A stretch of 64,000 nt of DNA from Halobellus captivus. GTDB lineage: Archaea; Halobacteriota; Halobacteria; Halobacteriales; Haloferacaceae. Of the stretch, positions 28,823 through 36,601 are shown piece after piece (position 1 is the stretch's first letter; every line of letters starts with the position of its first letter). Location: positions 62,001 through 126,000 of the forward strand of contig NZ_RDQE01000004.1 of the NCBI RefSeq assembly GCF_003697845.1, written 5' to 3'. A model generated the notes under the pieces. The model worked only from the letters and a program-made list of their open reading frames with translations, did no database searches and was not told the origin of the DNA. Made by a program: the position numbers and the translations under genes.

Positions 28823-30907
28823 TCAGTCCCGCGGTTCCACGAGGATCCGCGAGCGCATCTCGAGGTGGAGCGCGCTACAGAAGTACGCGCAGTACGCCCA
28901 GTACACGCCGGGTTCGTCCGCCGTGAACGTCACCTCGCGGGTGTCCTGGGGCGCCAACGCGAGGTTGACGTCGTACTCCGGGATCGCCAGCGAGTGGATC
29001 ACGTCGCTCGTGGTCTCGACGTTGGAGATCCGGATCGTCACCTCGTCGCCCTCGCGGACGGTGACCTCGGGGAACGCGTACTCGTTGCGGCGCGCCCACA
29101 TCTCGATCTCGACGGTGCTCTCGTCGATCCGCTCGAAGGACTCCTCCCCCTCGGGAACGAAGTCGAGGTCGTAGTCGTCGGGGCCCCACGTCTTCGCGGG
29201 CTCGATCTTGTCCTTGTGGACGATGCTGGCGTCGTGCGGCTCGGGGTACGAGGGCTTGTCCTTGACCAGTTCCATCCCGGCGTCGTCGTCGCCGATGTGG
29301 AACAGCTGGTCGTTCTCGGGGTGGATCGGCCCGACCGGGAGGAACCGGTCCTTCGACAGCTTGTTCAGCGAGACGAGGTAGTCGCCCTGCGGCGACGCCG
29401 TGTACGACTCGCTCGCGATGAGGTGGCCGGGGTTGTAGTGGACGTCGTGTTTCTCGACTATCGGCTCCTCGGAGCCGGCCTCGGCCTCGACGGCCGCCTC
29501 GTAGTCCCACTTGACGACCTGCGAGTCGATGAACAGCGTCGTGTACGCGTGGCCGCGGTCGTCGTAGGCGGTGTGGAGCGGTCCCATCCCGACGCGGGGC
29601 TGGCCGAGGATCGCGTCCGCCGGGTCGTCGACCTCCGCGATCTCCTCGACGCCGATGACCGTACAGGTCGGGTCGAGCTTGCCGGAGGCGATCGCGTAGC
29701 TCCCGTCCGGCGTCACGCTGACCCCGTGCGGGCTCTTCGGCGTCGGGACGTACCGGACGATCGGACGGTCGCCCTCGTTGAGCGAGCTGTCCATGGTGCC
29801 GTCGACGACCGGCACGCCGCTTATCTCCTCGTACTCGCCGGCCTCGACGGCGTCCCAGATCGCGGGGATGTCGAACGCCTTCACGTAGTCGCGGTCCGCG
29901 CGGGTCATCTCCCCCTGGGTGACGCCCTCCTCGCTGTTGTAGCCGGTCGCGAAGAACCAGCGGCCCTCCTTGCCGCCGTCGCCGTTGTCCATGTTGCCGT
30001 CGACCTCGACCTGCCACTCGACGTCCATCGTCTCGGGGTCGATGGCGGTGAGGACGGAGCCGTAGGCGTCGGGGTCGTCGACGTCGCGGCCGTCGTTCGG
30101 CATCGGCACGCGGAACTCCCCGACGCCGAAGACGAGCTGGGTGTCCGGCAGCTGCATACACGCCCCGTGGACGGCCTGCGAGTTCGGGACGTTCGTGATC
30201 GCGTCCGTCTCGAAGTACTCCAGGTCGACGCGGGCCATCCGCCCGTTCGCCTTGTCGTTGACGAACAGCCAGCGGCCGTCGTAGTCGTTGTCGGTCTGAG
30301 AGACGCGGGGGTGGTGGGTGTCGCCCCACGTGTAGCCGCCGCCCTCCTCCTCGAGCAGCTCGGTCGTCCTCGCGTCGTGGCCGAACCCCCGCGCGCTCTC
30401 GGCCTGGAACACGGGGATCCGCATGAGTTCGCGCATCGACGGGAGCCCGACGACGCGGATCTCGCCGGTGTGACCGCCGCTGAGGAAGCCGTAGTACTCG
30501 TCGTGTTCGCCCGGCGGGACGCTGTGCTCGCCGCTGGCGCCGGACGAGCCGTCCCCGCCGTTCCCCTCGTCCGAGAGGACGCTCGTACAGCCCGCGAGAC
30601 CGGTCATCGCGCCCACCGCGGCCCCGGCCTTCATGAAGTCGCGGCGGCCGAGCTCCAGCCGCGGAAGGTCGAGACTGGGGCGGCGGGCGGCGGCGGCGTC
30701 GGTCCCCTCCGCGGTCGCGGCGATGTCGCGCTCGTGGTCGGTGATCAGGTGCTCGACGGTGCGGCCGTCGACGATCTCGGGGCCGTCGTCGACCGCCTCG
30801 TCGTCGGCGGGTCCCTCCTCGGTTGCGGAGGCGGTCCCCGCCGCGTCGTCGCGGTGTTCGTCGGCCCGTGCCTCCCGGTCGTCGGTCGGATTCGGATCAG
30901 TAGTCAT
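28823..30907 (-). CDS. nosZ: Nitrous-oxide reductase
   Basis: Reduces N2O to N2 outside the membrane. 694 residues. Seven-bladed propeller with CuZ histidines: DTHHP (198-199), VHGAC (247), SPHGVS, GPLHTAYD, NPGHL, EPHDAS. Cupredoxin CuA site at the C-terminus: C673, C677, H681, M684 in YCAYFCSALHLEM. The Tat signal GRRDFMKAG (R88-R89) with a lipobox-like LAGC (C107) is preceded by an unusually long acidic 87-residue stretch. The ATG lies 11 bases inside the upstream regulator gene, and no later Met fits before the Tat motif. Confidence 0.97.
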   Translation of the reverse strand: MTTDPNPTDDREARADEHRDDAAGTASATEEGPADDEAVDDGPEIVDGRTVEHLITDHERDIAATAEGTDAAAARRPSLDLPRLELGRRDFMKAGAAVGAMTGLAGCTSVLSDEGNGGDGSSGASGEHSVPPGEHDEYYGFLSGGHTGEIRVVGLPSMRELMRIPVFQAESARGFGHDARTTELLEEEGGGYTWGDTHHPRVSQTDNDYDGRWLFVNDKANGRMARVDLEYFETDAITNVPNSQAVHGACMQLPDTQLVFGVGEFRVPMPNDGRDVDDPDAYGSVLTAIDPETMDVEWQVEVDGNMDNGDGGKEGRWFFATGYNSEEGVTQGEMTRADRDYVKAFDIPAIWDAVEAGEYEEISGVPVVDGTMDSSLNEGDRPIVRYVPTPKSPHGVSVTPDGSYAIASGKLDPTCTVIGVEEIAEVDDPADAILGQPRVGMGPLHTAYDDRGHAYTTLFIDSQVVKWDYEAAVEAEAGSEEPIVEKHDVHYNPGHLIASESYTASPQGDYLVSLNKLSKDRFLPVGPIHPENDQLFHIGDDDAGMELVKDKPSYPEPHDASIVHKDKIEPAKTWGPDDYDLDFVPEGEESFERIDESTVEIEMWARRNEYAFPEVTVREGDEVTIRISNVETTSDVIHSLAIPEYDVNLALAPQDTREVTFTADEPGVYWAYCAYFCSALHLEMRSRILVEPRD

Positions 30908-34426: not shown

Positions 34427-36601
34427 ATGACCGGATCGAACGGTGATCGCCCGGGCGACGATCACCCGAACGACGATCGACGGGTGACCTTCGAGACCGA
34501 GGGCGAGACGCTCCACGTCCGCGACGCGATCGAGGGGCAGCGGCTCTCGCTTCGGTTCGACCGGGAGCCGGAGCCGCGGCCCGCGATCACCGACCTGTTC
34601 GCGCTCCCCGTCGACCGGGCGGTGAGCTTCGACGCCGAGTCGTTCTCGATCCCGAAGTACTCGACGGTGAGCGTCCGCGAGTCCGGCGGCGAGTTCGTCG
34701 CCGAACTCAGCGAGGACCTCGCGCTGCCGCGCGGCGCCTACTGTTTCGACGTCGTCGGCGCCACGAAGGCGTTCGTCCGCGCGGTCGACGTCGAGGTATC
34801 GGCGACCGGAATGGCCGACGGCGGGGCCGTCGAGATCGAGTTCGATCGATCGACGACCGTGACCGTCGGCGGGCGGTCGCTTCACACCCGTCCGGAGGCG
34901 ACGATGGTCGTTCCAGACGACCCGGAGGCGCTCATGACGGCGGTGTCGGCGCTCGGCTCGTCGATCGCCGAGGCGTCGCCGGAGCGGTCCTGGCCCACCC
35001 TCCGTGGATACCCACCCCGGATCAGCCGCGGGGGGGCACTCGAGATCCCGGACCACCTCGAGTCCCCGGACGCCGGCGTCGAGATCGCGGTGCCGCCGAC
35101 GTACGCCGACGTCTATCGGATCGCGCCGCTGGCGTACTACCTCGGCGCGACCGTCGTGTCCGGTACGGATCCGGAGCTTCGGCTCGAGAGCGGGTACGTC
35201 GAGCCGCTGCCGAGCGAGGGTCCCGCGCTCGAACGCCGGGTCTCGGAGCTCCTCGGAACGACGCTGTTCTTGGACTCGCTGGCCCGAACCGAGGGGTACG
35301 TCCCCTCGGACCGATACGCGTACGAGCGGATCGGCGGAAAGCTGCCGTTTTACCCGCCGAACCTGGCCGACCGGCCGATGTCCGATCGCCTGATGGAGTA
35401 CCTCGAGGTCGATCCGGAGACCGTCGAGCCGTGCCTCCCCGAGTGGCCGACGACCGCGGTCCTCCGGCCCGGACCGTCGGGGATGGAACTGCTCGGCCAC
35501 CTCGCGCACCTGCTCGCGCCGATCCGGGTTCGCGGGTCGCCTGCGAAGACGAGCGTCGACGGCCGCGAGAATTTCCATGACGGAGGGGAGTCCGTCGGTT
35601 CCGGTTCACCGCCCGCGGCCGCGGTCTCGCCGGCGCTCACGGTCGCGGGCGGAACGCCGAGCCCGGACGACGCGCCGCTGCCGTCCGGCACCGCCGCGGC
35701 GAGCGTCGCCGCGTACGAGAACGAACTGGACCGATCCCGGCCGACGAAAGGCGACCTGTGCGTGTCGTTGATCGCGGACTCGGACGGGCGGGCCCGGGCG
35801 TTCGAGCGAGCCATGACGGAGCCGGGACCGCCCGACGGCGTCGATTCGTGGGAGATTCTCGTCCGGCCGACTCGCGAGGAGTTTCGCGATCGGCTCGCCG
35901 ATCCGGACGTCGGTCTGTCGGCGTGTTCGCTTCCGATCGACGGAACCCGCGTCGCCTGTGCCGACGGCGTCGTGGACGTCGCGGCCCTCGAGCGCGTGCC
36001 GACCACGACCGTGTTCGAGCGCGCCGGGCGCGTCGCGCCGGCCCTGGCGTCGGTGGAGGCCGGATCGCTCGCGTCGCTCGCCGTCGACGGCACGCTCGAC
36101 GCGGAACGGGTCCGCACGCTCGTCGGACTGCTGGCGACCGCGACGCCGCTCGCGGCGAGCGTCGCGATCGCGCGGGTTCGAGAGCACGCCGGGGTCCGTC
36201 TCGCCGGCGATCCGTCGGCGATCGCGGTCACGCCGGAGCGTGCGGGCGCTCAGGGGTTGGTTCGGGTTCGTTCGCGCTCGGAGACGGAACACGCGGTCAC
36301 GTGGCGGTCGCTCCCGTCGGTCGAGGCGCGAGTCGGCACGGAGTACCATCCGCTCTTCGAGTGGGCGGACACCGTTCCGGAACTCATCGGCACGGAACGC
36401 GAGGCTCCACGACCGCTCTCGACCGCGGAGGTGCTCGACCTCGTCCCCGAGGCCGACAGCGTCGTCGACCTCAACGGCACGGTCGTCTTCGAGCGGGACG
36501 GACTCACCGCTGACGACGTCCGGCTGTCGGCCCGGCGGGCGCTCGCCGACCGGTCGGCGTCGTCCGGGGACGGGATCTCCGTCCGGTTCGACGGGGAGTG
36601 A
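34427..36601 (+). CDS. Large haloarchaeal protein with a degenerate CHAT-like domain
   Basis: 724 residues; no signal peptide or membrane helix. N-terminal half (about 20-365) is an uncharacterised haloarchaeal domain with VPPTYADVYRIAPLAYYLGATVV (222-244). A disordered linker (370-435) leads to a region (441-600) whose order and spacing follow haloarchaeal CHAT (caspase-like) domains: DLCVSLIAD, then CADGVVDVAALE, ASVEAGSLASLAVDG, and LVGLLATATPLAASVAIARVREHAGVRLAGDP. Where active homologues have a GH histidine and an NAC cysteine, this protein has LSACSLPID (498-506) and FERAGR (530-535), so protease activity is probably lost. Start at 34427 supported by GTCATACG near 34397. Confidence 0.6.
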   Translation: MTGSNGDRPGDDHPNDDRRVTFETEGETLHVRDAIEGQRLSLRFDREPEPRPAITDLFALPVDRAVSFDAESFSIPKYSTVSVRESGGEFVAELSEDLALPRGAYCFDVVGATKAFVRAVDVEVSATGMADGGAVEIEFDRSTTVTVGGRSLHTRPEATMVVPDDPEALMTAVSALGSSIAEASPERSWPTLRGYPPRISRGGALEIPDHLESPDAGVEIAVPPTYADVYRIAPLAYYLGATVVSGTDPELRLESGYVEPLPSEGPALERRVSELLGTTLFLDSLARTEGYVPSDRYAYERIGGKLPFYPPNLADRPMSDRLMEYLEVDPETVEPCLPEWPTTAVLRPGPSGMELLGHLAHLLAPIRVRGSPAKTSVDGRENFHDGGESVGSGSPPAAAVSPALTVAGGTPSPDDAPLPSGTAAASVAAYENELDRSRPTKGDLCVSLIADSDGRARAFERAMTEPGPPDGVDSWEILVRPTREEFRDRLADPDVGLSACSLPIDGTRVACADGVVDVAALERVPTTTVFERAGRVAPALASVEAGSLASLAVDGTLDAERVRTLVGLLATATPLAASVAIARVREHAGVRLAGDPSAIAVTPERAGAQGLVRVRSRSETEHAVTWRSLPSVEARVGTEYHPLFEWADTVPELIGTEREAPRPLSTAEVLDLVPEADSVVDLNGTVVFERDGLTADDVRLSARRALADRSASSGDGISVRFDGE

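Follow-up and report, generated by a model that had tools for sequence, protein, structure and literature searches.

A putative CHAT-type pseudo-protease of Halobellus captivus and its haloarchaeal relatives

Background

A known regulator of this general kind is FLIP(L), a human pseudo-caspase that regulates caspase-8 (PMC7586951). When p20 caspase homologues were surveyed in 2019, the Archaea yielded no dead variants (PMC6426788). Measurements in Haloferax volcanii revealed caspase-like activity; the same paper noted that clear caspase homologues are missing from archaeal genomes (PMC3615174). A literature search on haloarchaeal CHAT proteins found no description among the papers searched, and the annotated plasmid-borne relatives of the protein discussed here are mostly recorded as 'hypothetical protein'. 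The window analyzed is a stretch of 64,000 nucleotides from the Halobellus captivus genome. One of its genes encodes a large protein that resembles the CHAT-domain proteases of haloarchaea and carries neither catalytic residue.

The gene and its product

The open reading frame lies exactly where the initial annotation had placed it, and its parts are as follows.

34427..36601, + strand: ORF of the putative pseudo-CHAT protein (724 aa, ATG start, intact)
34481..35551, + strand: conserved N-terminal region, residues 19-375, common to the active CHAT paralogues (59-sequence alignment)
34970..35017, + strand: residues 182-197, EASPERSWPTLRGYPP, core motif also found in active paralogues (E182 and W189 specific to the dead clade)
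35342..35359, + strand: LPFYPP motif, residues 306-311 (95-100% per position in 39 dead sequences, not in active paralogues)
35552..35698, + strand: variable linker, residues 376-424 (dN/dS 0.42-0.78)
35699..36226, + strand: CHAT-like domain lacking the catalytic dyad, residues 425-600 (hhalign, AlphaFold, Foldseek)
35933..35935, + strand: codon for P503, which occupies the catalytic-His column (family alignment)
35957..35992, + strand: CADGVVDVAALE, residues 511-522, what remains of the conserved hairpin that follows the catalytic His (alignments, profiles)
36023..36025, + strand: codon for A533, which occupies the catalytic-Cys column (family alignment)
36227..36598, + strand: C-terminal extension, residues 601-724, which aligns to active paralogues by hhalign (dN/dS 0.26-0.51)

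The MTGS start is shared with the intact orthologues of close Halorubrum relatives. The whole protein has no Pfam match up to an E-value of 10, and none that passes Pfam's own cut-off; NCBIfam likewise gives no match. Its N-terminal region has 13 invariant columns in the 59-sequence alignment and no relative in Pfam or the PDB by sequence or profile searches. A PDB search with the N-terminal and full-length profiles gave only gingipain beta-domain matches below the threshold (E-values of 0.05-0.14 for the N-terminal profile), which are at most a hint of a beta-sandwich. Elsewhere in the window, the gene at 28823-30907 (- strand) encodes a protein with a Tat-like signal and a cupredoxin-like C-terminus, which was recognized by eye as resembling nitrous-oxide reductase.

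A search of the whole genome (3.59 Mb, 37 contigs) finds a single relative, at G000:C1:348120-350255. This paralogue is 41% identical to the N-terminal half of the window protein (E-value: 9.4e-64), has an intact dyad in the motifs HYVGH and NACQS and shows a weak match to PF12770 (E-value: 0.051). The initial annotation had assigned the N-terminal half to the same family and had suspected an active paralogue elsewhere in the genome; both proposals hold, the second in the form of a protein that looks active from its motifs. The putatively active CHAT family is expanded in several genomes (G165, G136, G174, G143 and others of family f17), with up to 16 matches per genome.

Loss of the catalytic dyad

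Throughout this analysis, 'active' is used in the putative sense of a sequence in which the His-Cys dyad is present. The family alignment contains 108 sequences, 75 of them putatively active and 33 dead, including the window protein. The His column of the HY[IV]GH motif falls on P503, within SACSLPID, and the Cys column of the N[AG]C motif falls on A533, within FERAGR. These are precisely the stretches in which substitution of both residues had been read from the window protein alone. The His column holds His in 75/75 putatively active sequences and mostly Pro, otherwise Ala, Gly, Arg or Ser, in the 33 dead ones. The Cys column holds Cys in all 75 and Ala, Thr, Val, Pro, Gly, Leu, Asp, Asn or Ser in the dead set. 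Between the two sites, CADGVVDVAALE aligns with the CxDGxLDxxxL segment of the paralogues. An enlarged set of 114 sequences includes 39 without the dyad, and none of these 39 dead-clade members has an intact pair; the other 75 keep both residues. One of the 39, L156 (G157), has Ala at the His column, with one of its Cys residues aligning to the Cys column, either by chance or through partial retention. It weighs against the reading preferred below.

The order of CHAT elements that had been proposed for the C-terminal domain reflects homology to the CHAT domains of the paralogues. When the C-terminal 300 residues alone are compared by hhalign (27 dead against 29 active sequences), the profiles align over 271 columns with a probability of 99.5% and an E-value of 2.9e-23, so the N-terminal half is not what makes dead and active sequences align. 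PF12770 is matched by 12/34 active relatives (best E-value: 2.1e-5), and the CHAT label of the window protein follows from these matches of its paralogues together with the predicted fold. The AlphaFold model of residues 425-724 has a pLDDT of 84.5 and a pTM of 0.84, from an alignment of only 20 sequences. Foldseek against the PDB matches the C-terminal domain to SAVED-CHAT, Craspase, separase and caspase-7 (entries 8tl0, 7zoq, 5fc2 and 5v6z), with moderate TM-scores of about 0.38 to the query. The model thus supports a caspase/separase-type (CHAT) fold for residues 425-724 in the structural comparison called for by the initial annotation, and the predicted fold is not one unrelated to caspases. 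PLP enzymes such as methionine gamma-lyase, also in the Foldseek list, were discarded as generic alpha/beta matches (8-10 Å rmsd), and a Foldseek search of viral models gave no meaningful match.

A cryptic enzyme that relies on other residues would be the least probable of the explanations considered. C500 lies near the position once held by the catalytic His and does not vary within Halorubrum, which would make it a candidate for such a role. Across the whole dead clade, however, the C-terminal domain has no conserved His or Cys column. A displaced pair was sought there and none is conserved: the best columns, C500, C511 and H622, reach 62%, 59% and 64% of dead sequences, respectively, and Gly, Leu and Glu are the only residues with near-invariant columns in the domain. 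Sequence and predicted fold together give good support for classifying the window protein as a pseudo-protease.

A single dead clade

The dead sequences, first 33 and then 39, form one clade with a support of 1.0 in a tree built from N-terminal columns only, which excludes the catalytic sites. The clade is also recovered with an outgroup, for which four relatives were taken from another, more distant family of the phylum (IQ-TREE SH-aLRT: 100). As three of the four outgroup sequences keep the dyad, its loss is the derived state, with the long outgroup branches as a caveat; the fourth, L207 (G260), has lost it independently and reads QFIGRH at the His site and FFLCTDSS at the Cys site. The dead clade spans 14 genera, which belong to four families of the order. 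Since all of its sequences group together, the phylogeny shows that the dyad was lost a single time, in a common ancestor of several families of haloarchaea, and that the gene has been kept since. The initial annotation viewed a single window and so could not have seen this clade.

Conservation and selection

For the window gene against its relatives, Nei-Gojobori dN/dS values are 0.23-0.38 for the N-terminal region, compared with 0.33-0.51 for the CHAT-like part; those of the active paralogues are 0.13-0.28 in both parts alike. The gene is under purifying selection and is not a pseudogene. Its retention at full length, noted at the outset, is thus seen both in the intact ORF and in these ratios. 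Decay toward a pseudogene would account for the raised dN/dS of the CHAT-like part relative to active paralogues, and also for a few damaged copies: one split or frameshifted in a genome that has both genes (G013, L025/L123), one frameshifted in L019 (L019:3153-3330) and a remnant (L210/L167, G016:C1:331388-332059) that has lost most of the N-terminal region and covers profile positions 32-105 and then 532-744. This explanation is very improbable, as the ratios lie well below 1, almost all of the 43 Halorubrum genomes with the gene carry it uninterrupted, and the gene has a single, ancient origin across four families and invariant residues in its N-terminal region.

The two halves of the protein have exchanged their degrees of conservation. 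Mean identity within the dead clade is 48% in the N-terminal region and 25% in the CHAT-like part, the reverse of the putatively active paralogues (41% and 48%). Residues R187, R193, D283, R287, G290 and Y325 are common to both branches, whereas E182, W189, L253, Y291, Y299, the LPFYPP motif and E324 are 95-100% conserved in the dead branch and not conserved in the active one. Positions that are invariant around the active site of active paralogues (the columns of window-protein residues 502, 508, 528, 530, 531 and 535) are variable or lost in the dead clade.

A decoy role had been suggested for the window protein. As a decoy, its empty CHAT groove would bind, and thereby shield, what the active protease normally cuts. 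The shared predicted fold and the loss of both catalytic residues are compatible with such a role. It is nevertheless unlikely, because the CHAT-like part is the fastest-changing and least conserved part of the dead clade, the site-flanking positions have not been held and it is the N-terminal region that is strongly conserved with dead-specific residues.

Residues 277-425, which include the LPFYPP stretch, have an AlphaFold pLDDT below 50. The stretch fits a segment that may become ordered upon binding; a shallow alignment could also explain the low pLDDT.

Proposed function

The preferred reading, to which we assign a probability of roughly 0.55, is that the window protein is a pseudo-protease that regulates the pathway of its active paralogue and has been retained since the single loss of the dyad. 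The proposed model, which we infer from the conserved regions, is as follows. The N-terminal region, common to the active paralogue and carrying the dead-specific motifs (E182, W189 and LPFYPP at 306-311), would be the working part. It may bind whatever ligand or partner the active protease binds, or it may associate directly with that protease. Such binding would set the activity of the protease without any cutting by the pseudo-protease. The CHAT-like domain would be retained as a folded scaffold or a dimerization surface.

The main rival holds that the protein is an independent scaffold or sensor with no remaining tie to proteolysis, its N-terminal region having a task of its own (ligand or protein binding, through LPFYPP) and its CHAT part being a fold-stabilizing remnant. 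This is possible, and a conserved N-terminal region with dead-specific motifs beside a drifting CHAT part would be expected from it. The genomic context bears on both readings. Of 52 Halorubrum genomes, 42 have both genes, one has only the dead gene, four have only the active gene and five have neither (Fisher p = 2.7e-4, a value weakened by the fact that kinship and draft incompleteness are ignored). The dead-only genome (G234) is that of L019, whose copy is frameshifted. With that single exception, every Halorubrum genome that has the dead gene also has an active paralogue, which argues against an independent role, as does the sharing of N-terminal core residues with active paralogues. Across the order, 129 of 146 genomes have an active match, and the remaining 17 all lack a strong dead match; active paralogues are so common there that co-occurrence outside Halorubrum tells little.

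The positions of the genes point the other way. In H. captivus the window gene and its paralogue are on different contigs, the paralogue (contig C1) lying among genes that appear, judged from sequence, to be housekeeping genes. Dead and active genes are not neighbours in the dead-gene neighbourhoods, and no partner gene is conserved there between genera; an aldo/keto reductase and a phosphotransferase (both named by eye) are syntenic with the dead gene only within Halorubrum. Many other apparently conserved 'neighbours' were set aside, as they look like antisense shadow ORFs in GC-rich DNA. This lack of linkage and of a conserved partner counts against a regulator and agrees with an independent scaffold. 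So do three loci in which two dead paralogues lie side by side (L160, L163 and L164, in G188, G141 and G140), as tandem copies suggest a function that may do without the active protein. Moreover, unicellular cyanobacteria retain pseudo-orthocaspases although they have no active homologue (PMC6426788).

Comparison with known systems

The closest structural matches of residues 425-724 are the SAVED-CHAT protease filament (PDB 8tl0; Foldseek E-value: 2.6e-4) and the TPR-CHAT protein of Craspase (7zoq, 7y8t; E-value: 5.1e-4). Unlike these, the window protein has no dyad and no SAVED or TPR region, and the loci inspected contain no conserved CRISPR neighbour. Pfam finds no TPR or SAVED sensor domain in either the window protein or its paralogue, and the N-terminal profile finds no such structure. 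PADLOC returned one weak candidate match among 34 active relatives, so no defence assignment is made.

Haloarchaeal CHAT-domain proteases, represented by the own-genome paralogue (L002/L058, PF12770), have the same layout as the window protein: an N-terminal region of ~375 aa, a linker, a CHAT domain and a C-terminal extension. The window protein differs from that paralogue in the absence of His and Cys, the lack of a Pfam match and its dead-specific N-terminal motifs. The bacterial pseudo-orthocaspases are likewise proteins of prokaryotes that have the caspase fold, carry substitutions in the His-Cys dyad and persist in whole lineages (PMC6426788). They are p20/C14 proteins, often with Tyr-Ser at the two sites, whereas the haloarchaeal clade is of the CHAT type and has Pro/Ala or other residues. 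Dead caspase-fold proteins are thus already known in animals and bacteria, and what is new is an archaeal lineage of CHAT-type pseudo-proteases: a widespread and mostly 'hypothetical' haloarchaeal family has an ancient dead branch beside an active one.

By analogy, the window protein may be likened to FLIP(L), a dead paralogue of a caspase-fold protease kept beside the active one (PMC7586951), as an active-looking paralogue is present in the same genome. FLIP(L) belongs to the C14 caspase family and the window protein to the CHAT family. Rather speculatively, haloarchaea might possess a caspase-type regulatory pair, in which an active CHAT protease, a candidate source of the unassigned archaeal caspase-like activity, would be controlled by an ancient FLIP-like pseudo-protease through a shared N-terminal sensor region. 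The family supplies concrete genes with which regulation of a caspase-type protease by a pseudo-protease can be tested in Archaea.
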